Origin: Verrucomicrobiota bacterium
GTDB taxonomy: Bacteria; Verrucomicrobiota; Kiritimatiellia; UBA8416; SLMC01
DNA length: 34,270 nucleotides
Direction of reading: 5' to 3'
NCBI GenBank assembly: GCA_030018915.1
Contig: JASEHE010000009.1
Location: 1-34,270 of the forward strand
A program made the translations under genes and the position numbers. Positions within the stretch are counted from its first letter, which is position 1; every line of letters starts with the position of its first letter. This document shows positions 3,503 to 32,450 of this stretch, in pieces. The notes under the pieces were generated by a model. That model was given only the letters and a program-made list of their open reading frames with translations. It had not been told where the DNA came from and did not search any database.

Positions 3503-3770
3503 GTTGGAACTCTACTTGATTTCTGATTATCCAGAAAGAGATTCAGGCTGCTGGTGAAATTTGTCTGTTCCGCGCCCGAAAAAGAGACGTTCTTTTGCAG
3601 CCCGATCCTCTGGAGTTCGAGAAGCTGGTGGATGGTCTGTCGAACAGCAAAACGATGAATCCAAGTTCCCTGTATCGGCCTTCATTTTTCGGTTCCCTTC
3701 TCTGTTTCAGCATCCATCAGTGTTGGACATCTCCGTGTCACTAATCGGCGCGACACCAACCGACCACCGA
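3503..3770. other. AT-richer gap inside the V-ATPase operon, ending in an ACCGA-word repeat
   Basis: This 268-base spacer splits the B and D genes, which are otherwise tightly packed. By hand count 3521-3690 is about 48% GC, well below its neighbours. Near its B-side end, words of the type ACCGA recur (3757-3790), and TAATCGG (3742-3748) faces CCGATTA (3767-3773) as a perfect 7-base inverted repeat. The B stop codon lies inside the right arm, so the last B residues are encoded by the repeat. A 52-codon minus-strand frame (start 3685, stop 3527) and an open plus-strand frame (from about 3519) both exist, and neither is recognisable. It may be an inserted or decayed sequence. Confidence 0.5.
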
Positions 3771-5102
3771 TTACCGACCGTTGCTTACCGATGAGATCGG
3801 CGTTTCCTTCTTTGCGGGCCAGAACTTCTCGATCAGCCGTGTGGGGATGCCGGTCTCCATGGGCTCGAAGCAGTCGGCCAGGATCTCCCACCCGAGGTCA
3901 AGCGCCTGTTCCAGCGGGATGTTCACCGAGAGGTCCATCATCTCTTTTTCGAACCGCTCGCCGTATCGGAGAAGCTTGTTGTCCCACTCGCTGGCGCGGA
4001 AGCCCATGGAACGCTTTTCCACGCTTTCGTTGTGGCCGGCATAGAGCTGGATCAGGGTGTTCATGATCGCGCGATGGTCTTCGCGGGTTTTCCCGTTGAC
4101 CTGCTGCTTCAGGCGGCTGAGCGAGCCGAACGGCTCGATGCGGCCTTCGCGAAGGTAGAATTGGCCCTCGGTGATATAGCCGGTGTTGTCCGGGACGGGG
4201 TGGGTGACGTCGTCGCCCGGCATAGTGGTGGCCGCGAGAATGGTGATCGATCCCGAGGTGTCGAAGTCAACGGCTTTCTCGTAGCGCACAGCGAGCTGAC
4301 TGTACAGGTCGCCGGGATAGCCGCGGTTCGATGGGACCTGTTCCATGGTGATGGCGATCTCCTTCATGGCGTTCGAGAAATTGGTCATGTCGGTCAGGAG
4401 CACGAGCACGCGCTTGTTCTGGAGCGCGAACTGCTCGGCGACGGCCAGGCTGATGTCCGGCACGAGCAGGCATTCGACGATCGGGTCCGCCGCGGTGTGG
4501 ATGAACATCACGGTGCGCGAGATCGCGCCGTTTTCCTCCAGATTGTCGCGGAAGAACAGGTAGTCGTCGTGCTTCAAGCCCATTCCGCCGAGGATGATGA
4601 CGTCCACCTCGGCCTGCAGGGCAATGCGCGCGAGCAGCGGGTTATACGGCTCGCCCGCCCGGGCAAAGATGGGGAGCTTCTGGGATTCGACCAGGCTGTT
4701 GAACACGTCAATCATGGGAATGCCGGTCCGCACCATTTTGTCTGGAATGATCCGCTTGGCCGGGTTGACTGGTGGCCCGCCGATCTCGATGAGGTTCTCG
4801 GACAGGGCTGGCCCCTTGTCGCGGGGCGTGGCGCCGCCCGTGAACACGCGGCCGAGCAGAGCGTCCGAAAATGGCACGCGCATGGCGTGGCCCAGGAAAC
4901 GAATCTGAGCGTCGGTCGTCACCCCGCTGGCGCCGGCAAAGACTTGGAGGGAGACCTCGTCGTTGTTCAGGCGAATGACCTGTGCGCGCGATGTGCCCGC
5001 GCGCGAAGAGACCTCGGCCAGTTCGCGGTATTTCACGTCGCCGGCGCGGACGTTGATGACGTTTCCGGCAATCCGGTCCACTCGATGGTAGAGCCTACGC
5101 AT
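3771..5102 (-). CDS. atpB: V-type ATP synthase subunit B (non-catalytic nucleotide-binding subunit)
   Basis: B alternates with A in the soluble V1 head and has a structural/regulatory nucleotide site. The 443 residues start [20 protein letters not shown]. They contain the B-specific stretches [20 protein letters not shown]-like (here [18 protein letters not shown]), [39 protein letters not shown] and [15 protein letters not shown]. The classical P-loop is absent, as expected for B. Start ATG 5102 lies eight bases inside the end of the A gene (A stop TAG 5095-5097), so the two are translationally coupled; longer upstream readings run antisense-like through A and are rejected. The C-terminus (SSVSNGR) runs into the ACCGA-word repeat of the following gap. 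Confidence 0.96.
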
Positions 5103-6828
5103 GGGCAGTCGCCTCCGTGACCATGTTCTCGATTCTTTCCTGAAGCGTCTTGAACTCCGGGTCGTCCATGGCCGCGCGGTTCCACTCTTTGGTGGTCTGG
5201 GTGAGCTGGTGGAAAAATCGCCTGGCGGCGGTCTTGTCCGGGAAATGCGTCGGAGCGCGCAGGATGGCGCCAATCACCCCGAACATGTGGCGCTGCCGCT
5301 CGGCCGTCGAGGCGCCGTCCACCTTATCATAGGCGTCCTGCTGCAGATAAGAGTCGTCGAGGTATTCGGCTTTCAGGTAGGTGACGAAGTCGTCCATCGA
5401 GGTGCCTTCCTCTCCGACGACCTTCATCATCTGGCCGACTTCGTTGCCGGCGCGCAGGGTTCGGCGGGCCGTCTCAACTTCGTCGCGGGAAACCACGCCA
5501 GCGTATTTGCTCCAACTGTCCAGCGGATCAATGGCCGGGTAGCGCCGCGCGTCCGAGCGGGCGCGGGACAGGCCGTGGAAGGCGCCGACGACCTTGAGGG
5601 TGGCCTGAGTTACGGGTTCGTCGAAATTGCCGCCGGCCGGACTGATCGTTCCGCCGATCGTCACGGAGCCCGTGGCGCCGTTCTTGAGCCGGACGCCGCC
5701 GCCTCGCTCGTAGAAGTTGGCGATGACGGAATCCAGGTAGGCGGGGAACGCCTCCTCGCCCGGGATTTCCTCGAGGCGGCCGGAGGTTTCGCGCAGCGCC
5801 TGTGCCCAGCGCGAGGTCGAGTCGGCCAGCAGCAGCACGTTGAGCGACATCTGGCGGTAGTACTCCGCGATGGTGACGGCCGTATAAACGGAAGCTTCGC
5901 GCGCAGCCACCGGCATGGCGCTGGTGTTGCAGATGATGACGGTTCGCTCCATGAGGCTCCGGCCGGTGCGCGGGTCGATGAGGCGGGGGAACTCGCGGAG
6001 CGTCTCGACGATCTCGCCCGCGCGCTCGCCGCAAGCCGCGATCACGACAATATCCACGTCGGCGTGGCGACTCGTGATCTGCTGGAGCACCGTCTTGCCG
6101 GCTCCGAACGGGCCGGGAATGCAATAAGCGCCGCCGCGGGCAACGGGGAAGAACGTGTCAATGATCCGCACCTTGGTCACCAGCGGTTCGGTCGGGCGAA
6201 GCCGCTCGGCATACAGGCGAATCGGGAAACGAACCGGCCATCGCTGGACCATGGCGACCGATCGCTCGACGCCTTGCGCGTCGAGCAGCCGCGCGATTTC
6301 CAGGTCCGCCGTGTAGGCGCCGGCTGGCGCGATTTGGGCGACCTTGAACGCGCCGGTGAGGCCGAATGGAACCATGACGCGATGCGTGAAAATACCTTCC
6401 GGCACGCTCCCGAGCGGGTCGCCGGCGACCACCGAGTCGCCGACTTTGACTTCGGGCGTGAAGTCCCATCGGCGGTCGCGGGGAAGGGCCGGGAGGCGCG
6501 CGCCGCGCCGCAGGAAAAATCCGCACATTTCCGCGAGGCGCGGCAGAGGGTTCTGGAGCCCGTCAAAGACCTGCGCAAGCAGGCCGGGGCCCAGTTCGAC
6601 CGACAGCAGATTGCCGGAGAACTCGACGCGGTCGCCCACGCCCAGGCCCGCGGTGTCTTCGAACACCTGGAGGTCCGCCCGGGTCCCGCGCACGCGGACC
6701 ACCTCGGACATCAGTCCGACGTCGCCCAGTTTGGCGAAGGCCACTTCGTTCTGGCCGACAACTCCATCGAATTTCACGGTGATCATGTTGCCTGTGACGC
6801 CGATTATGGTTCCTGTTGTCCGGCTCAT
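5095..6828 (-). CDS. atpA: V-type ATP synthase subunit A (catalytic)
   Basis: A is the catalytic ATPase subunit of V1. The 577 residues have an N-terminal beta-barrel ([15 protein letters not shown]) and the extra 'non-homologous' region typical of V/A-type A subunits (about 110-190). Walker A, GPFGAGKT, is at residues 239-246 inside [19 protein letters not shown]. Further on come [17 protein letters not shown] and [19 protein letters not shown]-type motifs. Start ATG 6828 gives the usual N-terminus ([10 protein letters not shown]) and lies four bases after the stop of the upstream DUF2764 gene, so both are probably read from one transcript. The 3' end overlaps B by eight bases. Length is normal for the bacterial V-type family. 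Confidence 0.97.
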
Positions 6829-6832
6829 CGCG

Positions 6833-7387
6833 CTATTCCCGGCCGGTCGCCGGCCTCGTGTTGTTTTCGGAGTCGCGGTTCACAAGTTTGTCGACCCGTT
6901 CGCGGCCCGCTTCTGGATTCATGGCGGCCCATCGCTCGACAAGTTTCAGTTTGAGGGCGTAGGCGAGAAGCGCGGCGCCCGTGAAAGGGTCGAAGCCGGC
7001 CAGTTCATCAAGGATCGTCCAACGCAGACGGTCGAGCGCCCGTTCTCTCTCCGCCGGTGTCGGCCGTGAAAAAGCCTCTGCCACGCGTTTCTCAATCAGA
7101 AGGTCCACGCCGTTCTGCGGGCGAACGTCGGCTTCCGAATCCTGCCGCAGGCGGCCGGCGCGCAGGCGGACAACCGCGTTGCGGACCTGCGTATCCTTGT
7201 TGCACCAGGTCCGAACAAACGCCGACCGCGATTCCGGACGCGCGCGCCTCAGGAGCTCCTCCAATGCGCGCAGGTCCGCAGCTCGGAGATGCTCCCGGCA
7301 GAGGCTGAGGAACCGGTCAAAGGAGAGTGGCGGCGGCGCATCGAGGGAAAGCGCCGGCAAACTGGCCGCGAAGAAATAGTAGCCCAT
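6833..7387 (-). CDS. DUF2764-like protein of the V-ATPase operon
   Basis: The 184-residue protein begins MGYYFFAASLPALSLDAPPP and is followed by LSFDRFLSLCREHL. I recognise this opening from DUF2764 proteins, which occupy the same place, between E and A, in V-ATPase operons of Chlamydiae and relatives. It is helical, Arg- and Leu-rich and has no membrane segment or signal peptide. No separate C or F subunit gene is seen in this operon, so the protein may stand in for one of them (probably C, the adaptor between stator or rotor and head); that is inference from position only. Start ATG 7387 gives the family N-terminus. The stop precedes the A start by four bases. Confidence 0.78.
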   Translation of the reverse strand: MGYYFFAASLPALSLDAPPPLSFDRFLSLCREHLRAADLRALEELLRRARPESRSAFVRTWCNKDTQVRNAVVRLRAGRLRQDSEADVRPQNGVDLLIEKRVAEAFSRPTPAERERALDRLRWTILDELAGFDPFTGAALLAYALKLKLVERWAAMNPEAGRERVDKLVNRDSENNTRPATGRE

Positions 7388-7401
7388 GTGAAATATCCGG
7401 C

Positions 7402-8022
7402 CTACCGCGGACCGCCGGCCGAGCGCACGATCTCCGCCAGGCGCGGCCGCGCGATTTGGCAGAGCGCGTCCACAATGGCGTCCTGCGTGAAGTCGTGTTC
7501 GACGTTTTGACCTTTGACGCGCGCCTTGAATCCGCGCAGGATCGAGCCGTCCGCCTTGATCTCGACCCCTTGCTTCAACTCGCGGACGAACTGGGCCATC
7601 AGCGAATCCGCCAGCTTATTCCGGTCGTCCTGGCTCAGAAGAAGCTCGATTCCGCCTCCGCCGGCTCCGCTGCGGCCGTAGACTTCGACGGCCTTGAGCA
7701 GAATCGAACGCAGGGCATCCTCGCGCAACGCCTGGCCGACGTCCCGACGGACGATCTCGCGCAGAACGGCGTTTAGCGCCTCGCCGATCAAGAGGATAAC
7801 GTCCCGGGCGGCTTGTTCGAGGGTCTTGCGGCCGCGTTCCACGGACTCGCGCGCCGCCCGGTCAACGTCGGCCCGCTTGGCCCGGGCTTCTTGTTCGGCT
7901 TGGGCGACGAGCGCGCCGGCCTTTTGCCGGGCGGCGTCGAGGATGCGCGCGGCTTCAGCCTGGGCCTTGTCGGCGCCGTCTTTCTTGATTCGTTCCAGGA
8001 GACTTTGGAGTTCTTCCGCCAT
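7402..8022 (-). CDS. atpE: V-type ATP synthase subunit E (peripheral stalk)
   Basis: Subunit E is the peripheral stalk that holds the V1 head to subunit I. The 206 residues show a long Ala-, Glu- and Arg-rich N-terminal helix (MAEELQSLLERIKKDG, then AEAARILDAARQKAGALVAQ). A small globular C-terminal domain starting near residue 105 follows. I chose ATG 8022. A GTG at 8076, overlapping the stop of the oxidoreductase gene, would add 18 residues (MTVQPIRPVRPG...) that do not look like the family. The intergenic distance to the upstream oxidoreductase is therefore about 50 bases, short enough for co-transcription. The Gly-rich loop GRSGAGGGG near residue 120 is slightly unusual. Confidence 0.9.
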   Translation of the reverse strand: MAEELQSLLERIKKDGADKAQAEAARILDAARQKAGALVAQAEQEARAKRADVDRAARESVERGRKTLEQAARDVILLIGEALNAVLREIVRRDVGQALREDALRSILLKAVEVYGRSGAGGGGIELLLSQDDRNKLADSLMAQFVRELKQGVEIKADGSILRGFKARVKGQNVEHDFTQDAIVDALCQIARPRLAEIVRSAGGPR

Positions 8023-8072
8023 TGCATCGCTCGCTTTCCATCCCGGACGGACCGGGCGGATAGGTTGAACCG

Positions 8073-11000
8073 TCACATGCCGGCCATTTTCCGGAGCCGC
8101 TCGTAGCGGGCCGCCGTCAGCTTGTCGGCTTCTTCGAGGAGCTTCTTGGAAATCTCCGGATCGGTTTTCGCGAGGATTTTGAACCGGTTCTCCTTGAGCG
8201 CGTGTTCGCTGAACTTCATGGTCGGCGCGCCGCTGTCAAGGATCAGCGGATTTTTGCCGTCTTGTACCAGCGCCGGGTTGTAGCGGTAAAGCGGGAAATG
8301 GCCGGAAAGGACCGCTTCCTTTTCCCGCTCGAGCCCCTTGCGCATGTCAATACCGTGCGCGATGCAATGGGAGTAGGCAATGATCAGGGAAGGTCCGTTG
8401 TATGCCTCGGCTTCCACGAACGCCCTGACGACCTGATTGCGGTTGGCGCCCATGGCGACCGTGGCCACATACACGTTGCCGCAGGTCATGGCCATGAGGC
8501 CGAGCTCCTTTTTCATCGCCGGCTTGCCGGCTGCCGCGAACTTGGCCACCGCGCCCATCGGAGTGGACTTGGAGGCCTGGCCGCCGGTGTTGGAATACAC
8601 TTCGGTATCCAGCACCAGGACGTTGATATTTCGGCCGGAGGCCAGCACGTGGTCGAGGCCGCCGTAGCCGATGTCGTAGGCCCAGCCGTCCCCGCCGAGC
8701 GCCCAGACGGATTTCTTGACCAGGTAGTCCGCGACCGAGCGGAGCGCATCGCATGCCTCGCAGGGGCAGGCCGCCAGCCACGTCTTCAACTCGGCGACCC
8801 GGCCGCGCTGTTCCTCGATGGCGGCCTGGGACGATTGGTCCGCGCTCTTGATGGCGTCGAACAGGTCCGCCGGAACGTTCTTGCAGCCGGGCGAACCCAA
8901 GAGAATCCTGTCGAGAAGTTCCCGAGCGTACTCATTGAACTTGTCCACGGCCAGGCGCATGCCGAAGCCGAACTCGGCGTTGTCCTCGAACAGCGAATTG
9001 GACCAGGTCGGCCCGCGGCCGTCGCCGCGCTTGCAATATGGCGTGGTGGGCAGATTGCCGCCGTAAATCGAGGAGCAGCCGGTGGCGTTTCCGATCATGG
9101 CGCGATCGCCGAAGAGCTGGGTAAGCAGCTTGACGTAAGGGGTCTCGCCGCAGCCGGCGCAGGCGCCGGAGAACTCGAACAGGGCCGTGGAAAGCTGGCT
9201 GCCCTTCACCGTCGCCTTGTCGTAGAGTTTCGGATCGAGCTCGGGAATCTTGAGGAAGAATTCGAAGTTCTTCGCTTCCCGCTCACGCAGCGGAATTTGT
9301 GGCGCCATGTTGACGGCGCGCCGGCCGGTTTCCTGCTTGGTCGCCTTGTCCCGCTCGCGGCCCGGACAGGTTTCGACGCACACGCCGCAACCGGCGCAAT
9401 CCTCGGGCGCGACCTGAACCGTGAATTTCCTGCCCTCGAAGCCCTTGCCCCTGGCATCGAGCGATCGAAACGCCGGCGGGGCGCTCTCGAGCGCGGCCGG
9501 CTCATAGACTTTCACGCGAATCGCGGCGTGCGGGCACACCAGCGAGCAGGCGGCGCACTGGATGCAAAGCTCTGGGGCCCACTCCGGGATTTCCACGGCG
9601 ATGTTGCGCTTCTCGTATCGCGTGGTGCCGATGGGCCATGTGCCGTCGTCCGGCATCTTGCTCACGGGCAGCAGGTCGCCTTCCCGCCGCATGATGACGG
9701 CGGTGACGTTCTTCACGAAGTCCGGCGCATCGGCCGGAACAGTGGGCGGCATCTTGATCTTGCCCGCCGGCTTGGCCGGGACCTGAACTTTATGCAGGGC
9801 GGACAGGGCGGCGTCCACCACCCGGAAGTTGCTCCGGACAACGTCTTCGCCCTTCTTGCCGTAGGTCTTCTTGATGGCGCTTTTGAGCGACTCGACGGCT
9901 TTGTCGCTCGGCAGAACGCCGGACAGCGCGAAGAAGCAGGTCTGCATGATCGTGTTGATGCGCGCGCCCAGTCCGTGCTCGGCGGCCAGTTTCACCGCGT
10001 CGATCACGTAGAACCGAATCTTCCCGGCGATTATCCGCCGCTCGACCTCGTCGGGCATGTGGTCCCAAATCTCGTCGGCTGGGTAGTGGGAGGCCAGCAA
10101 AAACACGGCGCCCGGTTTGGCGTTGGAGAGCATATCGCATTTTTCCAGGAAGGAGAAATTGTGGCAGGCCACGAAGTCGGCCTGAGCGCACAGGTAGGGG
10201 CTGCGGATGACGCCAGGTCCGAAGCGGAGGTGCGAAACGGTCATGGCGCCGGCCTTCTTGGAGTCATAGACAAAGTAGCCCTGCGCAAAGTTGTCGGTGT
10301 CGTCGCCGATGATCTTGATCGAGTTCTTGTTGGCCCCGACGGTGCCGTCCGAGCCGAGCCCGTAGAACATGCACTCGACGCGGCCGTTCTGGGGAATCTG
10401 CCAGCCGTGGTCCACGTCGAGACTTTGATGCGTGACGTCGTCAACAATGCCGACGGTGAAATGCTTCTTCGGCGCCTGGGCGCCGAGGTTGTCGAACACG
10501 GCCTTGACCATGGCGGGCGTGAAGTCCTTGGAACCGAGGCCGTAGCGGCCGCCTTGGACCACGGGACAGTCCTTGCCCTTGAGCCACTTGTTCTCCATCG
10601 CTTCGCCGAGGGCGGCGCGGATGTCGGTGTAGAGCGGTTCGCCTACAGCGCCCGGCTCCTTTGTGCGGTCGAGCGCCGCAATGGCCTTGACGCCGGCCGG
10701 CAGAGCGTCCACGAAGGCTTTCGCGTCGAACGGTCGGTAGAGCCGCACCTTGACCACGCCGACCTTTTCGCCGTGGGACACTAAGCGCTCGACGGTCTCG
10801 TGGACCGTTTCGGCGGCCGAGCATATAACCACGGCCACGCGGTCCGCGTCCGGCGCGCCCACATAGTCGAAGAGGCGATACGCGCGGCCGGTGAGCTTGG
10901 CCAATCGGTCCATGGCCTTCTGGACGATGGCCGGCGTGGCGGCGTAGTACTTGTTAACGGTCTCCCGGCCCTGGAAGTAGACGTCCGGGTTCTGCGCGGC

Positions 11001-11657: not shown

Positions 11658-11732
11658 GATTGTTTCCTACCCTATCACCGGCCGGTCCTCAAGTACAGCC
11701 TCACTTTTTACTTGCGGCTTTGTCCTCGCCAT

Positions 11733-11888
11733 TTAGACGCGCCGCTGAATCTCGGTTTCCCTTCCGGAACTGAGTTCGAAATCCGCCCGCGTATGGCGCT
11801 CGCGCAAGGCTGGGACGGAGGCGACGAAATAGCCGTCTTCATCCTGCTCAATCACGACGTTGAATTCCCTTTGTCCTTGCGTCCCCAC
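11733..11888 (-). pseudogene. truncated HicB-like antitoxin
   Basis: A 51-codon frame from GTG 11888 to TAA 11733 encodes the beginning of a HicB fold. The stretch REFNVVIEQDEDGYFVASVP is nearly the family consensus. The following PALPGCHTQG-type segment is altered to PALRERHTRADFEL, losing the Gly-Cys, and the product ends soon after. HicB antitoxins are normally 70-150 residues and have a DNA-binding C-terminus, which is missing. AGGGGGTG lies five bases before the GTG, so it could still be translated. No HicA toxin is visible beside it. It occupies the spacer between the divergent nifJ and gyrB genes and is best read as the remnant of a toxin-antitoxin pair. The rest of the 367-base spacer holds only the gyrB promoter and leader. 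Confidence 0.6.
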
Positions 11889-11953
11889 TCTTCACCCCCT
11901 AATCTTCCGTCCCCCGCCGCCATTGAGAATTGTTAAAACGCGTCCTCGAACCC

Positions 11954-11983
11954 TTGCATTTTGGCCCCCGATTCGCTTATACT
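11954..11983 (+). promoter_or_regulatory. sigma70-type promoter of gyrB-gyrA
   Basis: TTGCAT (11954-11959) and TATACT (11978-11983) are separated by 18 bases, a close match to the vegetative consensus. Transcription would begin near 11990, giving a leader of about 35 bases before the gyrB ATG. Supercoiling-sensitive control is common for gyrB promoters elsewhere but cannot be shown from this sequence. Confidence 0.65.
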
Positions 11984-12006: not shown

Positions 12007-14445
<2,439 letters not shown>

Positions 14446-18126: not shown

Positions 18127-18204
18127 AGATTCCTAACAGAAGATCGCAAAGAACGCGGAGTTTGCGTCCCGCTCTGCGGCCTTTGCGGCCTTCTGTTAGA
18201 ATCT
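18127..18204. repeat. long inverted repeat of CGCAAAG/TCTGTTAG words between ruvA and ruvB
   Basis: The left arm (18127-18160, beginning AGATTCCTAACAGAAG) and the right arm (18172-18204, ending CTTCTGTTAGAATCT) are reverse complements over about 33 positions. They differ at five aligned bases and one single-base gap, with an 11-base loop. Within the arms, words such as CGCAAAG and CGCGGAG/CGCAGAG repeat with slight changes. An ruvA-ruvB transcript would fold here into a long stem without a T-run. It could be a processing or stability element, or a mobile palindrome. Confidence 0.7.
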
Positions 18205-18922: not shown

Positions 18923-18999
18923 CGCGAAACCGGCGACTGGAAACTTGGAAGTCGGGATGCCGAGTTTCCAGTTTCTAACTTCCAATTTCCCGTTTCGCG
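18923..18999. repeat. CTGGAAACT-word inverted repeat upstream of ruvA
   Basis: CGCGAAAC (18923-18930) and GTTTCGCG (18992-18999) form perfect outer arms. Inside them, variants of CTGGAAACT, TTGGAAGT and GGGAAATTGG occur in tandem on one side and inverted on the other, so most of the 77 bases can fold back. Read as protein it gives the low-complexity ETGNWKLETGN, which argues against coding. Of the 194-base spacer 18865-19058, the remainder shows no gene or clear promoter. Confidence 0.7.
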
Positions 19000-19232: not shown

Positions 19233-19248
19233 GGCGACCTCAATTCTT

Positions 19249-19274
19249 CATTCGGCATTCAACATTCGCCATTC
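19249..19274. repeat. four CATTC words at exact 7-base period
   Basis: CATTC occurs at 19249, 19256, 19263 and 19270, each followed by two variable bases (GG, AA, GC, AC). The tract fills most of the space between the histidine phosphatase stop (19278) and the small membrane protein start (19232). Confidence 0.7.
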
Positions 19275-19277
19275 ACG

Positions 19278-19913
19278 TCACGTGCTTTCCCCCGGCAGAA
19301 GATGTTTCGCGCAATTGACCAGTTTCGCCACGGCCGAGCCCGACCGCCAGACATCGAGCACACTGACCGAGGCGTTGCCGATGTCAAGAAGAATGGACTT
19401 GAGCGCCGACCGACCGCCGAGCATCGGCATAACGGTCCGGATGAAGTTGCCGTGCCCCACCACGAGGACCTTTTCGCCGGGCTTGTGCGTGTGTCGCAAC
19501 CGGTTCGCGAAACGCTCGACGGTTTCCCGCTCCTTCTTGATCGCATCCCGGCCGGCGGGCCCGAATCCCGCCGGCACGACGATGAAGTGGTCGCGGCTGA
19601 CCTCGTCGAGTTCCTTCAAGACGGTCATAGGCGTATGCTTGTGAAACCGCATGATCTCCAGGGCGGTGTCATGCGCTCGCAGAGCGGAACTCACGTAGAC
19701 GTGGTCGAACGCGAGCCGGTCCAGGCGCCGGGCCAGCCGGACCGCCTGGCGGCGCCCCAGCGCTGTCAGCGGCGGATCGTCGTCCTTTCGAACGCCCGTT
19801 GAACCCTGGTCAACCGCCTCAGCGTGGCGCGCGAACACCACGGTCAACGGCGTGTTAATCGCGTTCTTCGCATGATCCGGCTTGGCGGATGTTGTGGCGG
19901 TCTTAGGTTCCAT
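19278..19913 (-). CDS. histidine phosphatase family protein (phosphoglycerate mutase-like)
   Basis: A phosphatase with a phosphohistidine intermediate. In the 211 residues the catalytic motif is FARHAEA (Arg-His-Ala, His31), a second Arg lies in the SALRAHDTALEI region near residue 83, and the second catalytic His is in VVGHGNFIRTV near residue 153. RHA rather than RHG is common in SixA- and CobC-like branches. The N-terminal 22 residues are polar and unlike the family. The substrate cannot be told from sequence; protein phosphohistidine, sugar phosphates or alpha-ribazole phosphate are options, with no pathway context nearby. Start ATG 19913 has AGGA seven bases upstream. It is divergent from the subtilisin gene, with 74 bases between them. 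Confidence 0.88.
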   Translation of the reverse strand: MEPKTATTSAKPDHAKNAINTPLTVVFARHAEAVDQGSTGVRKDDDPPLTALGRRQAVRLARRLDRLAFDHVYVSSALRAHDTALEIMRFHKHTPMTVLKELDEVSRDHFIVVPAGFGPAGRDAIKKERETVERFANRLRHTHKPGEKVLVVGHGNFIRTVMPMLGGRSALKSILLDIGNASVSVLDVWRSGSAVAKLVNCAKHLLPGEST

Positions 19914-25129: not shown

Positions 25130-25134
25130 CGATA

Positions 25135-27666
25135 TCATTCCCCGAACAGCATCAGTTGGCGCGAAGCGTCGTCCTTGGGCCGGCGCGCGCGGCGGCGCGC
25201 GATCTTAGGCTGGCCGGTTTCGCCGAGTTCGTCTTCCTCCAGGTTGGCGAGAATCTCCTTGGCGCGGTCAACCACGTCCGGCGGCAGACCCGCCAGCCGC
25301 GCCACCTGGATGCCGTAGCTCTTGTCCGCCCCGCCCGGCGCGATCTTGCGCAGGAACACGACTTGGTCGTCCTTCTCGCGGACCAGCACGTTGTAGTTCT
25401 TGACGCCAGGCAGGGTCAGCGCAAGGTCAGTCAGCTCGTGATAGTGGGTGGCGAACAGGGTTTTGGCCTTGACCCGCTCGTTGTTGTGCAGGAACTCCGC
25501 CACCGCCCAGGCAATGCTGATCCCGTCGAACGTGCTCGTGCCGCAGCCGATCTCGTCGAGCACGATCAGGCTGTGCCGCGTCGCGTTGTTCAGGATGTTG
25601 GCCGTCTCCTGCATCTCGACCATGAACGTGCTGCGGCCGCGCGCCAGGTCGTCGCTCGCGCCCACGCGTGTGAACACGCGGTCCACGAGCCCGATGCTCG
25701 CCTCGTCGGCCGGCACGAACGAGCCCATCTGGGCCATGACTACGATCAACGCCACCTGCCGGATGTGCGTGGATTTCCCCGCCATGTTCGGGCCAGTAAT
25801 GACGAGCAACTGGTTGCTCTCGTTGTCCAGCAGCGTGTCGTTAGGCACGAACCGCTCGGCCTCCGGCATCTGCTCGACCACCGGATGACGCCCGCCGCGA
25901 ATCCGAATGACGCCGTCGTCGCCGATCGCCGGGCGAACGTAGCCGAGCGCGAGCGCGCGGTCCGCCAACGCGGCCAGCGCGTCGAGCTGTCCGAGCGCCT
26001 GGGCCGCCGCCTGGATGCTCGGCGTCTGCCTTGCAATCGCCTCGCGCACCGCCACAAACAGATCGTACTCCAGTTGCTGGGCGCGGTCCTGAGCGCCGAG
26101 TATCTTGTTCTCGTGCTCTTTCAGCTCCGGTGTGATGAACCGCTCGGCGTTGACCAGCGTCTGCTTGCGGACGTAGTTCTCCGGCACGCGCGGCAACTGG
26201 CCCTTTGACACCTCGATGTAGTAGCCAAAGACCCTGTTGTGCCGCACCTTGATCGTCTTGATCCCAGTCCGCCGCTGCTCGGCGTCTTGATGCTTCGCCA
26301 GCCAGTCCCGCGCCTCGCCGGCGATAGTCCGCAGTTCGTCGAGGTCCGCGTTGTACCCGGCGCGGATGAGCCCGCCCTCCTTGATCGCGATCGGCGGCTC
26401 GTCCACGATCGCGCGTCGGATCAGGTCCGCCAGCTCCGGCTGTGGAACGATCGCCCGATCGAGTTCCCGGGCGAGGTCCGCGCCGAGCGCGGCGGCCTGT
26501 TCCTTGACCGCCGGAACCCCGGCGAGCGAAACGCCCAGCGCGGCCGCGTCCCGCGCATTCCCGCTGCCGGACCCGATCCGCGCAATCAGCCGCTCCAGGT
26601 CCCGGATGCCGGCCAGCGCGTCCCGCAGCCCTTGCAGGGCCGCCCGGTTCTTCGCGAGCGCCTCCACGGTGTCTTGCCGGCGCCGGATCGCTTCGACGCG
26701 CGCCAGTGGGCGGAGAAGCCAGTCGCGCATCGCGCGGGCGCCCATAGCCGTCCGAGTAACGTCCAGCACCCGCAGCAGCGTCATGCCGCCTTCCTGTCCG
26801 CGAAGCGGCGCGAGATCGAGGTTCCCGCAGGTCGCCTCGTCGAGCACGAGATAGTCGGCCGTGCTCCGCGTGTGGAACGAACGAATGTGCGCGACGTGGC
26901 GCTTCAATTCGTCCCGGACATAGTGGAGAATCCCGCCGGCCGCGCCGACCAGCGCGGGCTGATCTTCGCAGCCGAAGCCCGCCAGCGAGTGCGCGCCGAA
27001 ATGCCGCCGCAGACTCTCATGGGCCGCGTCGTACGCGAAGACCCAGTCGTCGCACCGGCTCGCCCGCGCGATGCCGAGATCGGCCAGGACCGAACAAATC
27101 TCGGGGTCCTCGGCTTGCGACTCGGGCGCCACGCATTCGCTCGGCGGCAGGCGCCGCAGGCTGTCCCGCAGGGCAGCCGCCCCGCTCAGGACTTCGCCGA
27201 AGAAAAGCCCCGTGGAAAGATCGAGCATGGCCAGCCCGAAGACCCCGCCATCGCGGTAGACCCCGGCCAGAAAATTGTTTCGGCTGGACTGGAGAATCTT
27301 GTCCTCCGTGACGGTCCCGGGCGTGACGATCCGCGTGACCTCGCGGCGGACGATCCCCCGGGCCGTCGCCGGGTCCTCCGTCTGATCGCAGATGGCGACC
27401 TTCTTGCCGGCCTTGATCAGGCGGGCCAGGTAGGCGTCCACGGCATGGTGCGGCACGCCGCACATCGGCGCGCCCTGGCGTTTCGTCAGGGCGACGTCCA
27501 GGATGGGCGCCGCCTCCTGGGCGTCCTCGAAAAACATCTCGTAGAAATCCCCGAGCCGGAAGAACAGAATGACCTCGGGGGCAAGTTCCTTCCTGATCCG
27601 GCGGTATTGCCGCATCATGGGAGTGAGGGCGCCGGCGCCGTTGCCTGTGATGTCGCGGGTGGTCAT
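25135..27666 (-). CDS. mutS: DNA mismatch repair protein MutS
   Basis: MutS recognises mismatches and starts repair. The 843 residues contain the mismatch-contacting Phe-X-Glu (FYE at 41-43, in RLGDFYEMFFEDA), the connector, and the lever and clamp helices. The ATPase has Walker A GPNMAGKST near 624, the VPADEASIGLVDRVFTRVGA signature and STFMVEMQETANIL; IVLDEIGCGTSTFDG is the Walker B region. This is the MutS1 repair type, not MutS2. Start ATG 27666 overlaps the ksgA stop as ATGA, so translation is coupled; a start at Met17 or Met18 (MMRQYRRIRKELAPE) is possible. No mutL lies in the window. Confidence 0.97.
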   Translation of the reverse strand: MTTRDITGNGAGALTPMMRQYRRIRKELAPEVILFFRLGDFYEMFFEDAQEAAPILDVALTKRQGAPMCGVPHHAVDAYLARLIKAGKKVAICDQTEDPATARGIVRREVTRIVTPGTVTEDKILQSSRNNFLAGVYRDGGVFGLAMLDLSTGLFFGEVLSGAAALRDSLRRLPPSECVAPESQAEDPEICSVLADLGIARASRCDDWVFAYDAAHESLRRHFGAHSLAGFGCEDQPALVGAAGGILHYVRDELKRHVAHIRSFHTRSTADYLVLDEATCGNLDLAPLRGQEGGMTLLRVLDVTRTAMGARAMRDWLLRPLARVEAIRRRQDTVEALAKNRAALQGLRDALAGIRDLERLIARIGSGSGNARDAAALGVSLAGVPAVKEQAAALGADLARELDRAIVPQPELADLIRRAIVDEPPIAIKEGGLIRAGYNADLDELRTIAGEARDWLAKHQDAEQRRTGIKTIKVRHNRVFGYYIEVSKGQLPRVPENYVRKQTLVNAERFITPELKEHENKILGAQDRAQQLEYDLFVAVREAIARQTPSIQAAAQALGQLDALAALADRALALGYVRPAIGDDGVIRIRGGRHPVVEQMPEAERFVPNDTLLDNESNQLLVITGPNMAGKSTHIRQVALIVVMAQMGSFVPADEASIGLVDRVFTRVGASDDLARGRSTFMVEMQETANILNNATRHSLIVLDEIGCGTSTFDGISIAWAVAEFLHNNERVKAKTLFATHYHELTDLALTLPGVKNYNVLVREKDDQVVFLRKIAPGGADKSYGIQVARLAGLPPDVVDRAKEILANLEEDELGETGQPKIARRRARRPKDDASRQLMLFGE

Positions 27667-28709
27667 GGCGACGGCTTCCCGCTGACTTCGCTTCGCTCGT
27701 CAACGCCGGCCGCGTATCCGAGCAGGCGCAGTTTCGCCGACAAGCCGCAGTCCGGCGCTTCAATCGTCTTGTTGATTTCGACCTGTGGCTCGAAGTTGCG
27801 CCGCTCAAGGAGCACTTCGTCAAAGCGCCGGTCGCAGAATGAGCGCTGAAACACCTGTTGCGAACGGGCGAGATTGAGCCAGTCCGCCGCGCCCAGATTC
27901 TCGGGCCGGGCATTCTCGGGAACGCCCAGCGCCTCGAGCAGCCCGCGGAAGTCATCCGCCGTGATCGGTTCGCCGCCCTTCGACGCGCCCGCCAGGCTCA
28001 CGGCCAGCTGCTTCCGACGATGCGCGAAGGCAAGCTTGGTCAGCGCGCGCGTCGCCTGCCGGTCGCTTAGCTTCGGCAATTCCGCCGAAGCCCGCCGCGT
28101 CAACCCCACGATGCGCGAATTCACGTCCGGCCTCGGCCAGAAGCAGTTCGCGCTCACCCGCTTCACCAGTTCCACGTCGTAGACCAACCGGCACCAGACG
28201 GTCGCCAGCCCGTAGCGCCGGGTCCCGGGCTCGGCTGCAAGCCGTTCGGCCACTTCCTCCTGCGTTGTTACAATCATCCGTTCCACTGGCGATTCCACGA
28301 CGGCCAGATTGAGCAGGATGCGCGTGCCCACGGAATAGGGCAGATTCGAGACCACCCGATTGACGCCGTAATGGGTCAAGAAGTCCGGAATATTCAGCGT
28401 CAGCATGTCCGCGCGGACCAATTCCAGCCGTCGCTCCCCCGCAAAGCGCCGTCGCAAATGCGCGAACAGCCGCTCGTCCTTCTCTACGGCAATCACGCGC
28501 CCGCAGGTTTCCACCAGCCGCTCGGTGACCACGCCCAGCCCGGGCCCGATTTCCAGCGCGCAAGCCTTGTTCGAGAGATCCGCCGCGCGGATCAGGATGT
28601 CGAGGACGTTCCGGTCAATAAGAAAGTTCTGTCCCAGAACCTTGGACGGACGAAAGTCGAGTTCGCCGACGAGTTGACGAACCTGGAAGAGGCTGGTGAG
28701 GTTGATCAT
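27663..28709 (-). CDS. ksgA: 16S rRNA (adenine-N6,N6) dimethyltransferase
   Basis: KsgA/RsmA dimethylates two adjacent adenines near the 3' end of 16S rRNA, using S-adenosylmethionine. The 348 residues show PSKVLGQNFLIDRNVLD, the SAM motif EIGPGLG at 53-59, the catalytic motif NLPY at 122-125 (SNLPYSVGTRILL) and FAHRRKQLAVSL. The family normally ends after the ENL-type segment (here PENLGAADWLNLARS). This protein runs about 65 residues further (through RSFCDRRFDEVLLERRNFEP) to DERSEVSGKPSP, which looks like translated spacer DNA. It lies 21 bases after the SurA-like gene and overlaps mutS by four bases. Confidence 0.96.
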   Translation of the reverse strand: MINLTSLFQVRQLVGELDFRPSKVLGQNFLIDRNVLDILIRAADLSNKACALEIGPGLGVVTERLVETCGRVIAVEKDERLFAHLRRRFAGERRLELVRADMLTLNIPDFLTHYGVNRVVSNLPYSVGTRILLNLAVVESPVERMIVTTQEEVAERLAAEPGTRRYGLATVWCRLVYDVELVKRVSANCFWPRPDVNSRIVGLTRRASAELPKLSDRQATRALTKLAFAHRRKQLAVSLAGASKGGEPITADDFRGLLEALGVPENARPENLGAADWLNLARSQQVFQRSFCDRRFDEVLLERRNFEPQVEINKTIEAPDCGLSAKLRLLGYAAGVDERSEVSGKPSP

Positions 28710-28730
28710 GCCGAGGCGCGGTTCTTCGGG

Positions 28731-29690
28731 CTATTCCTTGCGGTCGAGCACCGTTACGTAGGCCTTTCGCTTCAACTGTTCGATCCAGGCGTGGTACAAC
28801 CGCTCGGCTTCCTGCTTCCGCAACTCCTGCTCGATCTCCGCCTGGACTTCCTGCAAGGGAACCGGCCCCTCCGCTTTTCGCTCGCCGAGCTTTGCGATGT
28901 AGACCTCCTCGGACGTCTCTACCGCGTCGCTGATCTCCCCGGGCTTTAGCGCGGCGATCGCTTTTTGAAGTTCCGGCCGGAGATCCTCAAGCGCCACCCA
29001 GCCCCAGTCGCCGCCTTCGTCCGCGTTGGCGCCCTGAGACGCCTCCTTCGCCACAGCGCCGAAATCTTCGCCTTTGGCCAGCCGCTGCCGGACCGCGTCC
29101 GCGGCGCGCGCATGGTCGGCCTCTTTCTTGAGCACGATCACGCTCAGCCGCGCCTGGGCCGGCCGGATGTAGCGCGCGGGGTTCTCGCCGTAGTAGCGTT
29201 CCACCTGTTCCGGCAGGATTTTCACGTTCTGCCCGACGTTCAGGCTCCGCAGGGAAGACACGACAATGTGGTTCTCGATCTCTTCCTTCCAGCTCTCGAA
29301 CGTAACCTGGTCCTTCGACAGGGCCGCCATCAGGGCGGAGCGATCGCCTTTGAAGCTCTCGCGGATTACGGCCTCGACTTCCTGATCCACAGCCCAGGCC
29401 GGAATCTTGCCTTCCTGCTCCTTGTGGGAGTCCAGAATCAGATAGCGCTCGATGAGAACATTCAATCCGTCGTCATAGAGCTTCTTGATCTGGTCCTCTG
29501 GCGCTTTGCCCTTGTGCCGGGCAAACAATTCCTGCTGCCGGGGCGCGACCATGGCCTGCACGTCGCCCAGCGTGATCGCATGGGAGTTGACGTAGGCGAT
29601 CGCGCCGTCCACAAAGACCGGCTCGGCGCCCGGCGCCGCCGGCAGCGCCGAAGCCAGCAGAATCGCCGGCAGTATCCGCATCCCTTTCAT
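28731..29690 (-). CDS. SurA/PpiC-type periplasmic peptidyl-prolyl isomerase
   Basis: A periplasmic chaperone or prolyl isomerase for outer-membrane proteins. The 319 residues begin with a signal peptide (MKGMRILPAILLASALPAAP, cleavage expected near residue 20-22). The SurA-type N-terminal chaperone region follows (VDGAIAYVNSHAITLGDVQA, near residues 27-45) and then one parvulin domain (about 180-272; SVIVLKKEADHARAADAVRQ, GDWGWVALEDLRPELQKAI). A C-terminal helix completes it. E. coli SurA has two parvulin domains; this has one. Start ATG 29690 is preceded by GGAGAAACAGCC. Its partnership with ksgA recalls the E. coli surA-pdxA-ksgA operon, here without pdxA. It is probably transcribed from the promoter at 29761-29789. 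Confidence 0.9.
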   Translation of the reverse strand: MKGMRILPAILLASALPAAPGAEPVFVDGAIAYVNSHAITLGDVQAMVAPRQQELFARHKGKAPEDQIKKLYDDGLNVLIERYLILDSHKEQEGKIPAWAVDQEVEAVIRESFKGDRSALMAALSKDQVTFESWKEEIENHIVVSSLRSLNVGQNVKILPEQVERYYGENPARYIRPAQARLSVIVLKKEADHARAADAVRQRLAKGEDFGAVAKEASQGANADEGGDWGWVALEDLRPELQKAIAALKPGEISDAVETSEEVYIAKLGERKAEGPVPLQEVQAEIEQELRKQEAERLYHAWIEQLKRKAYVTVLDRKE

Positions 29691-29760
29691 GGCTGTTTCT
29701 CCGGGCCCGGCTTGACATTTTTCCGCCGGAAATTCCCAATGATTCAAATATCTCGTCCGT

Positions 29761-29789
29761 AATCTACCGTAGTTGAAGCCGATTGACAA
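29761..29789 (-). promoter_or_regulatory. predicted promoter of the surA-like, ksgA, mutS operon
   Basis: On the minus strand TTGTCA (29789-29784) and TAGATT (29766-29761) are 17 bases apart, giving a leader of about 65 bases before ATG 29690. The -35 box overlaps that of the opposite promoter at 29783. Confidence 0.5.
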
Positions 29790-29811
29790 TAACCGGGAAA
29801 ACGGGATTAAT
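29783..29811 (+). promoter_or_regulatory. predicted promoter of the small lipoprotein gene
   Basis: A perfect TTGACA (29783-29788) is followed after 17 bases by ATTAAT (29806-29811). The start codon is about 46 bases downstream. The -35 hexamer shares five bases with that of the divergent promoter, so polymerase could not occupy both at once. Confidence 0.5.
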
Positions 29812-29857
29812 GCCTGCTCAACCAGCGGGCTGCGCCCGCAGGCGAAAGGCTGAATCC

Positions 29858-30241
29858 ATGAGCCTCTTGCAGAACAACCGAGAAGTTCGCAAAAAGGTTC
29901 GCGTCGTCGGCGTCCTGGCGGTTCTACTGATCGTTGGAGTCGGCTGTGAAACGGGCACGGATGTGAATTCGGCGACCCAGGCCGAGATTCAGATTACCCC
30001 AAATTATACGTCGCTCGGCAAGGGCCAGGCGGCCGAGTTCACGGCCACGGGCTGGCATGAATACACGTGGAGCCTGGCGTATGCCGACTGGGGCACACTG
30101 ACACACAAGACCGGCAAGACCACCGTTTACACTTCGGTGATCACGACCAACGACATACAGATTCTCACGTGCGCGGCTACCGTCGCCGGGACCAACGCGT
30201 TTTCCACGGTCGCGGCGCAAGCGCTGATCGAGCATCACTAG
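29858..30241 (+). CDS. small exported or lipoprotein-like protein with a bacterial Ig-like fold
   Basis: The 127-residue product has a basic start (MSLLQNNREVRKKVRV) and a hydrophobic stretch ending in Cys (VGVLAVLLIVGVGC). This resembles a lipoprotein signal, although Gly at -3 is atypical. The mature part (EIQITPNYTSLGKGQAAEFT, then WHEYTWSLAYADWGTLTHKT) has the pattern of a single Ig-like (BIG2-like) domain. No catalytic motif is seen and the function is unknown. ATG 29858 was chosen over an upstream TTG because it begins the signal sequence and has AAAGG ten bases before it. Confidence 0.75.
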   Translation: MSLLQNNREVRKKVRVVGVLAVLLIVGVGCETGTDVNSATQAEIQITPNYTSLGKGQAAEFTATGWHEYTWSLAYADWGTLTHKTGKTTVYTSVITTNDIQILTCAATVAGTNAFSTVAAQALIEHH

Positions 30242-30261
30242 TCCTGCGGCAGAGCAGAAGC

Positions 30262-30383
30262 GATCGGTGATCAGCGCCGGAGATCGTGGAATGATTCGTT
30301 CGAAAGGCGCGGATCGCCCGGAAGGCGTCGGACGCCAACCGTCCGGACGCCAACCCAACCGCTGACTGCCGACTGCCGATCAC
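30262..30383. repeat. GATCGG/CAGTCGG-word repeats with 15-base tandem, upstream of the methyltransferase
   Basis: GATCGGTGATCAGC (30262-30275) is echoed in inverted orientation by GCTGACTGCCGACTGCCGATCAC (30361-30383, shown here only as its position and words GACTGCC twice). Between them GGACGCCAACC occurs at 30330-30340 and 30345-30355, a 15-base period, and GGCGTCGGACGCC is a palindrome. The 146-base spacer is almost filled by this element; no promoter is evident. Confidence 0.6.
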
Positions 30384-30387
30384 TCCT

Positions 30388-31215
30388 ATGACTACGACAG
30401 CCCGCCCACCCAGCCGGCTCTCCAGCCTCGGCAACCCGAGCGTCAAGCAAGTCGTCAAGCTGCGCATGCGGTCGCATCGCGACGAGCTCGGTCTCATGAT
30501 CGTCGAAGGCTACCGCGAGATCAACCGCGCGCTCGACAACCGGCATTGGCCCAGGCAATTGTTCTTCTGCCGCGGGATGTTCCAGGGCGAGAACGAGGAC
30601 ACGCTCATCCGCCGCTGCGCGGAAGCCGGCGCCGAACTGTTCGACTGTTCCGCCAAGGTCTTCGACAAGATGTCCTACCGCGACCGGCCCGACGGACTGC
30701 TGGCCGTTGCCTCGCAGGTGAAACGGTCGCTCCAGGACCTGGCCGTTCCGGCCGATGCCCTCGTCGTGGTGGCCGAATCCATTGAAAAGCCCGGTAATCT
30801 CGGCACGATCCTGCGTAGCGCCGACGCCGCGGGGGCGCATGCCGTGCTCGTGTGCGACCGATGCACGGACCTCAACAACCCGAACGTCGCGCGCGCCAGC
30901 ATCGGAACGCTGTTCTCCCTGCCGGTCGTCGAGACATCCAGCGCCGAGGCGTGGAAATGGCTGGCAAAAAAGAAGTTTCAGGTCCTGGCCGCTACTCCCC
31001 ACGCCGACAAGCTCTACACCGAGGCCGACATGACTCGCGCCACCGCGTTGGTCCTGGGAACGGAGCAATACGGCCTGAGCGAAGCCTGGATGAAGAAGGC
31101 CAGCCTGCGAGTGCGGATTCCCATGCTCGGGCAGGCCGACTCCCTCAACGTGGCCGCGGCCGCCACCATCATACTCTACGAAGCTGTCCGCCAGCGGTCG
31201 CCGGCAAAGCGATGA
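30388..31215 (+). CDS. SpoU/TrmH-family RNA 2'-O-methyltransferase
   Basis: A methyltransferase of the SPOUT superfamily that methylates the 2'-O of a ribose in rRNA or tRNA. The 275 residues have an N-terminal substrate-binding part (LSSLGNPSVKQVVKL ... LMIVEGYREINRAL). The three SpoU motifs follow: ESIEKPGNLGTILRSADAAG with the catalytic Asn and Arg, LVLGTEQYGLSE, and IPMLGQADSLNVAAAATIIL. The target nucleotide cannot be told; RlmB- or TsnR-like activity is possible. Start ATG 30388 lies at the edge of a repeat element and has no obvious ribosome binding site. The TGA stop overlaps an ATG (ATGA), but the 31-codon frame that follows is unremarkable. Confidence 0.92.
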   Translation: MTTTARPPSRLSSLGNPSVKQVVKLRMRSHRDELGLMIVEGYREINRALDNRHWPRQLFFCRGMFQGENEDTLIRRCAEAGAELFDCSAKVFDKMSYRDRPDGLLAVASQVKRSLQDLAVPADALVVVAESIEKPGNLGTILRSADAAGAHAVLVCDRCTDLNNPNVARASIGTLFSLPVVETSSAEAWKWLAKKKFQVLAATPHADKLYTEADMTRATALVLGTEQYGLSEAWMKKASLRVRIPMLGQADSLNVAAAATIILYEAVRQRSPAKR

Positions 31216-31292
31216 GGTCCGGCCTCGAAACACGCGGAGTAGAGATCACGCGCGGATTGCGCGAGTTCTGGCGAGACGATGTTCTTCACCAC
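31176..31292 (-). CDS. possible 38-residue small protein with a strong ribosome binding site
   Basis: GGAGG (minus strand, 31302-31298) lies five bases before GTG 31292 and eight before a second GTG at 31289. The frame reads VVKNIVSPELAQSARDLYSA, CFEAGPHRFAGDRWRTAS, then stops at TAG 31176. It follows the glycosyltransferase stop by about 28 bases on the same strand and overlaps the end of the convergent methyltransferase gene by 40 bases. No family is recognised. The good binding site is the main argument; chance is a real alternative. Confidence 0.28.
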   Translation of the reverse strand: MVKNIVSPELAQSARDLYSACFEAGPHRFAGDRWRTAS

Positions 31293-31320
31293 GGTTACCT
31301 CCGCTGAATGACCCGCGCGA

Positions 31321-32112
31321 TCATGTAGACCGCGCGCCGGCGGGGCGACGCGCGAGTTTACGGTGCGGCCACGGAATGAGCCGGCGACCGACCAGAGCGA
31401 TGTGCCGAAGGACAATCCGCAGGTTGTCGAGCCCCGGACGAAAGTGCGAGATGCGTTTGTCCGGCGGCTGGTAGGACACTCCGATGGGCGCGCGCTTGAG
31501 CGCCAAGCCGGCCCAACTGGCCTTGACGAGCACGTCGGTCTCGAAGTCGAACCGGTTGCCACGCAGCCGCAGGCGGGCCAGGTGCTTGACCGGATAGGCG
31601 CGGAAGCCGCTCTGCGAGTCTCCAGGCGAGACGCCCGTCTCAAGGCGCACCCAGAAGTTGGAAAACGCGCGGCCAAATCGGCTGCTCCGAGGCACGTTCG
31701 GGGCCGTAAAGTCGCGGACACCGATGACGATGCTGTCCGCGTCCTCGCGGAGCGCTGAAACGAACGCGGGAATATCCGCCGGCCAGTGCTGTCCGTCCGC
31801 GTCCAGCGTGATCATGAAGCGGCCGCCCTCCGCCTCGACGCGGCGCAGACCCGTGAGGAGGGCGCGGCCTTTGCCGAGATTGCGTTCGTGCCGGAGCACG
31901 ACGATGTCGGTCCCCGCGAGCAGGCCGGCGACGGAGGCGTCGGTGCTGCCGTCGTCAACCACCAGGACGCGCCGGAGCAGGCGGCGGCAGCCGGCGGCGA
32001 CGGCGGCGACCGTGTCGGCATTGTTGAAGACCGGAATGACGCACCAGATGTCGTCAGCGCCCGGAAGGAGGGGCGAAACAAGGGGAAGTTCCGGAGTGGG
32101 GTTCATGGGCAT
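31321..32112 (-). CDS. family 2 glycosyltransferase (polyprenyl-phosphate sugar transferase type)
   Basis: A cytoplasmic GT-A fold enzyme that transfers a sugar from an activated nucleotide, probably to a lipid carrier or envelope glycan. The 263 residues include VIPVFNNAD (25-33), VVDDGSTD (51-58), HERNLGKGRALLTGL (75-89) and the DXD-type LDADGQHW (103-110). GDSQSGFRAYPV and FDFETDVLVKASWAGL follow, which resemble dolichyl-phosphate mannose synthase-like enzymes. No membrane helix is present. I placed the start at ATG 32112 (AAGAAGA upstream is weak; ATG 32106 is an alternative). A longer reading would only translate CTCGTC repeats and is rejected. Confidence 0.88.
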   Translation of the reverse strand: MPMNPTPELPLVSPLLPGADDIWCVIPVFNNADTVAAVAAGCRRLLRRVLVVDDGSTDASVAGLLAGTDIVVLRHERNLGKGRALLTGLRRVEAEGGRFMITLDADGQHWPADIPAFVSALREDADSIVIGVRDFTAPNVPRSSRFGRAFSNFWVRLETGVSPGDSQSGFRAYPVKHLARLRLRGNRFDFETDVLVKASWAGLALKRAPIGVSYQPPDKRISHFRPGLDNLRIVLRHIALVGRRLIPWPHRKLARRPAGARST

Positions 32113-32129
32113 GGAAGTCTTCTTTCGTT

Positions 32130-32203
32130 CTTGTCCTCGTCCCTCGTCCTCGTGTTCGAACGACTGGGCGGACGAGTGGTCGAGGACGAGGACGAGCACG
32201 ACG
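32130..32203. repeat. CTCGTC-word inverted repeat in the spacer upstream of the glycosyltransferase
   Basis: CCTCGTCCTCG (32142-32152) and CGAGGACGAGG (32181-32191) form a perfect 11-base inverted repeat with a 28-base loop. Flanking CTTGTCCTCGT and ACGAGCACGACG extend the same hexamer-like word more loosely. It lies at the edge of the 317-base gene-free spacer 32113-32429. The middle of that spacer (about 32205-32370) shows no gene or promoter I can support. Confidence 0.65.
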
Positions 32204-32370
32204 AAAAACAAAGGAAATCCCACGCCACTGCCTCGTTCATGCCCCCAAAAAAACTTTGCGACAGCAGACTTTGACGAACTCCTGCCGGCCCCGCGTAGGC
32301 CGCGGCAACGCGGCCGCGCGCCGTTTGCGCCAACCAGGCGGGCGGCATCATCATCGCGTGCCCACGTTGT

Positions 32371-32411
32371 CACGTGGCGCGTAACTCACGTGGCGCGTAA
32401 CTCACGTGGCG
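32371..32411. repeat. 16-base tandem repeat, 2.6 copies
   Basis: CACGTGGCGCGTAACT occurs exactly at 32371-32386 and 32387-32402, followed by a partial copy (CACGTGGCG) at 32403-32411. Each unit begins with the palindrome CACGTG. Located 19 bases from the stop codon of the lipoprotein gene. Confidence 0.85.
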
Positions 32412-32424
32412 GCGCGAAGGGCGC

Positions 32425-32450
32425 ATGTTTCACGCGGGAGTGTGAAACAT
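32425..32450 (-). terminator. hairpin spanning the lipoprotein gene stop codon (terminator-like, no T-run)
   Basis: ATGTTTCAC and GTGAAACAT form a perfect 9-base stem with an 8-base loop. The stem contains the last codons (MFHTPA) and the TGA. There is no T-run, so intrinsic termination is doubtful; it may instead act as an mRNA end stabiliser or belong to the repeat class seen in other spacers. Confidence 0.4.

Follow-up and report, generated by a model that had tools for sequence, protein, structure and literature searches.

Seven spacers between genes in a 34,270-nucleotide stretch of a genome from the class Kiritimatiellia of the Verrucomicrobiota (the window, contig C209) hold short words repeated with slight changes, which raises the question of whether they are one kind of element and of what writes them. 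A sequence-only reading of the window described them as alike in architecture and not in sequence, each spacer using its own word, usually in both orientations so that it folds back on itself, and ascribed them either to a process making palindromic repeats locally or to selection for structured gene ends. We find that the listed spacers are several independent repeat families, at least four by sequence, and that some of them carry arrays of a degenerate heptamer which is shared with unrelated loci and with related genomes. The genome is a draft metagenome-assembled genome (MAG) of 2.12 Mb in 209 contigs, 90.5% complete, and genome-wide counts were made on 895 kb of it, taken as stretches containing 382 spacers. 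Stretches that were compared carry L numbers as labels, followed by the position. The shuffles keep dinucleotides only, genes were called by a simple open reading frame (ORF) method, and two all-N contigs were subtracted from both the observed and the shuffled period-7 counts.

Scanning the spacers for inverted and tandem repeats, the check which had been proposed with the sequence-only reading, gave an excess of both over shuffled spacers. Inverted arms scoring at least 12 were found in 40 of the 382 spacers (1.4 in shuffled ones), and 41 period-7 arrays reached a score of at least 10 (about 1.4 in shuffled spacers), 15 of them scoring at least 14, which none did in the shuffles. Among lags 4 to 22, lag 7 is by far the highest and is followed by lag 14, a multiple of 7, while the autocorrelation within spacers has a clear excess at lag 7, the sole such lag not divisible by 3. 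The arrays of this genome were sought and found in spacers, and the lag-7 signal is absent from its coding DNA. A 7-nt unit over-represented relative to shuffled sequence and to other unit lengths, as found here, is what defines the heptanucleotide tandem repeats of bacteria.

When the 41 arrays were aligned over phase and strand, they gave one degenerate heptamer, TCRGKKK (MMMCYGA on the other strand), with an expectation-maximisation word score of 3.59 compared to 2.22±0.12 when the seven columns of each array were permuted. Pairs of arrays from different loci score at least 11 in 126 out of 791 cases, against 17 after permutation. The same matrix applied to 58 arrays of other genomes scores 1.79 (0.63±0.16 when permuted, and 0 of 200 permutations reaching it), and these 58 arrays of relatives yield a similar consensus of their own, MNYTGAA. 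The words are therefore not unrelated, nor is there a different one for each spacer, as had been thought: unrelated loci hold variants of one degenerate heptamer, which the arrays have in common with each other and with those of relatives. GACGAG, CTTTGCG and GTTTCACGCGGGAGTGTGAAAC were each found again elsewhere in the genome. The arrays also tend to have an inverted copy close by, with a partner scoring at least 12 within 200 bp for 31.7% of arrays, compared to 2.4% for the flanks of other arrays and 1.2% for random spacers; direct partners within the same distance accompany 9.8% of arrays, against 3.0%. The suggestion that palindromic repeats are made or kept locally is supported by this excess, the more so as no transposase of the RAYT type (REP-associated tyrosine transposase, where REP stands for repetitive extragenic palindrome) was found in the genome.

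Repeated or palindromic words do exist at all of the listed sites, which contain the following features:
3752..3792: degenerate heptamer array ACCGACC/ACCGATT/ACCGACC..., direct repeats, no significant hairpin (z -0.9 for 3742-3790)
18127..18204: long hairpin with 28-nt arms, 82% complementary, word CTTTGCG/CGCAAAG, between ruvB and ruvA (z -7.4)
18923..18999: two heptamer arrays paired in inverted orientation, GGAAACT...AGTTTCCAGTTTCTAACTTCC, on the upstream side of the ruvA coding start (z -3.9)
19243..19277: degenerate heptamer array with the words CATTCGG/CATTCAA/CATTCGC, in direct orientation only and without a hairpin, period-7 score 13 (z -1.6 for 19243-19280)
30329..30355: CGGACGCCAACC in two copies with 15 nt spacing (z -1.7 for the whole spacer, 30262-30383)
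30358..30382: short heptamer array CTGACTGCCGACTGCCGATC, period-7 score 11
32125..32206: GACGAG/CTCGTC hairpin built from a mixture of 6-nt and 7-nt units (z -4.9)
32286..32461, plus strand: mosaic of palindromic modules terminating in hairpin H, from alignment (z -3.2 for 32365-32465)
32370..32411, plus strand: TCACGTGGCGCGTAAC, 16 bp, repeated 2.5 times in tandem by internal duplication of a mosaic module
32425..32450 (core 32428-32447), plus strand: hairpin H, ATGTTTCACGC-GGGA-GTGTGAAACAT, which has about 57 copies dispersed over the genome

Compared with dinucleotide-preserving shuffles, RNA folding is exceptional at the four sites near 18127, 18923, 32125 and 32365, which are palindromic as proposed, and not at the other three (3742-3790, 19243-19280 and 30262-30383), so that three of the seven sites are not clear palindromes. 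The proposal of one architecture without a common sequence thus holds as far as the excess of palindromes goes and fails as a single family, having lumped together at least four sequence families. Heptamer arrays lie behind four of the seven sites (3742, 18923, 19243 and 30358), and only 18923-18999 is also an inverted pair. The first array extends into the 3' end of the ORF at 3771-5273 on the minus strand and its words also occur in arrays at L123, L134, L143, L147 and others, while the TTTCNAG word of 18923-18999 is found again genome-wide. The hairpins at 18127 and 32130 belong to two further recurring palindrome families. In the former the arm word is CTTTGCG..CTTCTGTT, the right arm being found again at L123:173, with partial matches at L155:5510; a Kiritimatiellae locus from the rumen (L075:55-170) has two copies of GAACGCAAAGGCCGCAAAG, a word of the same type. 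The GACGAG family forms further hairpins at L022:7968-8030 and L159:11050-11115, and its word is also present at L022:16917-16962, L155:14440-14515 and L133:9196. The modules of the 32286-32461 mosaic partly recur in L149, L170, L192, L195 and L202.

The genes surrounding these spacers are intact housekeeping genes, in agreement with the earlier description, and code for V/A-type ATPase subunits, pyruvate:ferredoxin oxidoreductase, gyrA, ruvB, ruvA, mutS, ksgA, a PPIC isomerase, a SpoU methylase and a glycosyltransferase. No tRNAs were found in the window, nor any Rfam matches at the gathering threshold. According to RuvB, the closest named relatives are Kiritimatiellae and Lentisphaerae MAGs, with a ruvB identity of 79-80% at most to the nearest ones.

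Arrays of this type are widespread among relatives. The pattern GTTTCNNGTTTCNNGTTTC (GTTTCNN three times) is present in 58 of 289 Verrucomicrobiota genomes, its backward control being near zero, and in genus g33, which is not the genus of the window, the counts by species are 73, 44, 7, 3 and 0. The majority of the arrays inspected in g33, which were chosen by word and not by place, lie inside or overlap genes; as they were picked with the GTTTC word, these cases show that arrays within genes are possible and not how frequent they are. The gene names used for these loci (hemN, trmE, epimerase and GH2) come from the translated sequences. At the hemN site an array is found in the same phase in five species, with words that differ between them (GTTTCAG, ATTTCAG, AACTCCA/AACCCCA and CATCCGG). 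The identity between units within a species is 0.84, 0.84 and 0.88 for three species, which is higher than between species (0.44-0.78). With units alike within species and words differing between species at one site, the units change in concert. Lag-7 identity at five gene loci ranges from 0.38 to 1.0 among the orthologues (at least 0.6 in 14 of 18), compared to 0.19-0.28 in the flanks. For trmE, two species have an array, in frame, which makes the gene 15-18 nt longer than in the four species without it. A related array is also found in the spacer by a helicase-like gene in two species (L228 and L232).

Three properties of the arrays are observed, namely a single preferred period, a shared word and an excess of local inverted partners, to which the congeneric species add persistence at the same site with units changing together, and presence or absence at trmE. 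Fixed-length tandem units which are alike within species and drift between them are the hallmark of slippage with homogenisation, and an inverted arm nearby is what template switching in a hairpin leaves behind. The reading we favour, with moderate confidence, is that the heptamer arrays stem from 7-nt slippage together with hairpin template switching, and that the H site is a separate element, REP/BIME-like (BIME, bacterial interspersed mosaic element) and MITE-like (MITE, miniature inverted-repeat transposable element). Replication slippage by 7 nt at sequences near MMMCYGA would let arrays arise and stay uniform, snap-back template switching would produce the inverted partner arm, and the arrays would persist in any DNA able to tolerate them, whether a spacer or a permissive site within a gene. 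The unit length would be set by the polymerase contact length of 7 nt, a proposal cited in PMC4692102 and described in PMC4679880. The shared word would require a preference for certain sequences, which is where the proposal is weakest; slippage and template switching as the agents, and the reasons for this word and this length, are inferred.

Several points weigh against the proposal. Slippage alone does not predict one word shared across loci and species. The array at 18923 (TTTCCAG) is only a loose fit to the shared word, and the window's own arrays are short, with scores of 11-13. In addition, lag-7 identity is just 0.38-0.60 in G085 and G193 (hemN) and in L264 and L266 (epimerase), and judging from these low-identity orthologous arrays, part of the pattern may be the decay of one old array.

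There is some room, though not much, for a sequence-directed process, either an enzyme or a property of the polymerase, which would write and rewrite MMMCYGA in both orientations, in genes as well as spacers, in many Verrucomicrobiota. Selection of the arrays as binding sites or as structured gene ends, such as terminators, RNA stabilisers or protein sites, is unlikely. The inverted arms fold strongly at some sites, the word is common and the positions are kept between species, as selection would have it, but in the related genus arrays lie within genes, a fixed site has a drifting word (GTTTCAG, ATTTCAG, AACTCCA and CATCCGG at hemN), and the fold at three of the seven window sites is no better than in shuffles. 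As a general cause, the selection for structured gene ends first put forward is made unlikely by these in-gene arrays of related species. Distinctly doubtful is a sequence-specific writer (a reverse transcriptase, a telomerase-like or another templating enzyme) adding heptamer copies in either orientation at breaks or nicks. Such an enzyme would explain better than slippage why unrelated loci and several species have one degenerate word in common, and would also fit the two orientations lying close together. No candidate gene was found for it, however, the only reverse transcriptase seen being a group II intron fragment. The units differ from one another in every column (0.11-0.29), with 84 transitions to 79 transversions where chance would give 1:2, and this transition-leaning pattern resembles ordinary mutational drift. 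There is little likelihood that the arrays spread as mobile units of a MITE or REP kind: words are common to different loci, and L034/L125 and L137/L155 share sequence beside or across their arrays, but most masked array neighbourhoods have nothing in common except other dispersed repeats, the heptamer arrays inspected showed no target duplication and no Y1 transposase (PF01797) was found in the genome. Chance, by which low-complexity spacers would have been taken for patterns, agrees with the three sites folding no better than shuffles and is refuted genome-wide by the 41 arrays and 40 strong palindromes, of which shuffled spacers give about 1.4 each.

The heptamer arrays belong to a known, unexplained class of bacterial repeats. 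Published examples of heptanucleotide tandem repeats include those of Calothrix, GGGAATC in Xanthomonas and GGGGA(C/T)T in Nostoc (PMC4692102), as well as TAACTGA in Beggiatoaceae, cyanobacteria and Bacteroidetes (PMC4679880). The Xanthomonas repeats lie mostly between the same genes in two species, with changes in length and sequence (PMC4692102). The published repeats are mainly intergenic. The arrays described here resemble them in their 7-nt unit, their patchy distribution across species and the occasional inverted pairs. They differ in being degenerate, with many variants of one word in one genome and often an inverted arm, and in that the related genus keeps arrays inside coding genes, where the units change in concert. 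Under the matrix of this genome, TAACTGA and GGGAATC rank within the top 6-7% when compared with permutations of their own columns, which is suggestive only; other published words (GGGGACT, CCCCAGT and TTGGTCA) do not fit. The in-gene repeats may also be compared with the Rickettsia palindromic elements, which are about 150 bp long and fall into sequence families (PMC10969869): like these they sit in coding genes, in frame, but they are heptamer arrays of 30-50 nt without conserved sequence.

Hairpin H resembles a mobile palindrome of very small size. Its consensus, [YTAR]CCCGSATATTTCRCGC-GGGA-GYGTGAAATATSCGGG[YTAR], is a palindrome of about 36 bp with 57 distinct copies in the genome, equally on both strands (28 and 27 pattern matches), while 37 relatives together have three isolated matches with one mismatch. 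When the tetranucleotides on either side of 24 solo copies are compared, 74 of 96 positions match as a direct repeat (50.8 when shuffled, 0 of 5000 reaching it), and registers 2, 3, 5 and 6 and the inverted register are without comparable excess; such agreement is characteristic of a 4-bp target-site duplication. Judging from crude ORF calls, the stop codon of the adjacent ORF lies within the flank tetramer for about 11 of 30 copies, so that insertion of H there re-creates the stop. At L022:19911-19960, H-like ends (CCCGGATATTTC) enclose a longer centre, with TTAG on both flanks. The loop is GNRA in all 56 of 56 copies (GGGA 39, GAGA 11, GTGA 3, GGAA 2, GAAA 1), possibly reflecting a constraint on RNA or single-stranded DNA. 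The reading of H as a structured RNA was rejected, as the stem pairs match no better than shuffled partners, with no covariation beyond column composition, and no Rfam family was found in the window.

REP/BIME elements and REPINs are palindromes tagged with GTAG/CGTC and associated with RAYT (PMC3733652, PMC3116915). Like REP/BIME, H is a short palindrome with many extragenic copies dispersed over the genome, occurring in mosaics of several palindromic modules. The statement that the spacers are unlike REP/BIME therefore does not apply to 32371-32450, which belongs to a dispersed family of mosaic hairpins that has target-site duplications. H differs from REP and REPINs in having no consistent GTAG/CGTC tag (its ends are YTAR-CCCG...CGGG-YTAR), no RAYT found and 4-bp direct repeats at its flanks. 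The search for a RAYT-type transposase, suggested with the original description, gave 0 matches to PF01797 in the 90.5% complete genome, with a positive control search in 5 known genomes, and strict REP/RAYT transposition is not supported, the REP-like mosaic at 32371-32450 being present nonetheless. Terminal inverted repeats and a fixed-length, YTAR-like 4-bp target-site duplication are MITE-like features, although H, at just about 36 bp, is nearly all inverted repeat and no autonomous partner was found in the sequence searched. Nothing convincing was seen among paired ends 25-3500 bp apart or around the DDE transposases, which are present in the genome with no H-like ends near them. The copies of H were presumably moved by a transposase.

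Class C group II introns insert beside stem-loops. The same 37-45 nt come after six of the H copies, several of them at the ends of contigs, and lead into a group II intron (RF02001, 70.6 bits). The intron lies directly beside H or H-like hairpins at the following places, several of them contig ends:
L134:1-80, L146:1-80, L196:820-900, L186:1-80, L200:1-60, L203:1020-1100 and L211: group II intron beside H or H-like hairpins

The intron contains the start of a reverse transcriptase-like ORF (L196:37-438), which reached no Pfam family on its own, and one copy is interrupted by another (L196:20-46). The intron accounts for some of the contig breaks and not for the H family itself. A 35-bp palindrome, CTCAGCAGGCATCCCGCCGCGGGATGCCTGCTGAG, is found at the ends of many contigs (L021, L024, L027, L034, L040, L122, L155, L160 and L124), with 21 half-site matches in the stretches read, and is probably a repeat breaking the assembly. 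Two other palindrome families were also observed: CTGAATTTCGCGCGC-AAG-GCGCGCGAAATTCAG, dispersed at L039:1661-1699, L128:458-490, L147:5640-5673, L154:6243, L146:3130 and L159:6844 and 13057, and that of the word CGCGAATCA, at L153:2530 and 7193, L138:7712 and L159:13101.

The over-representation of heptamer repeats in bacteria has been noted since 2007, and its cause is not agreed upon. The shared word, the frequent inverted arms and the concerted units within genes provide measurable handles on the process that generates them, and the array load, ranging from 0 to 73 within one genus, permits a search for the gene responsible. If true, a sequence-directed rewriting of MMMCYGA would explain this long-standing excess.

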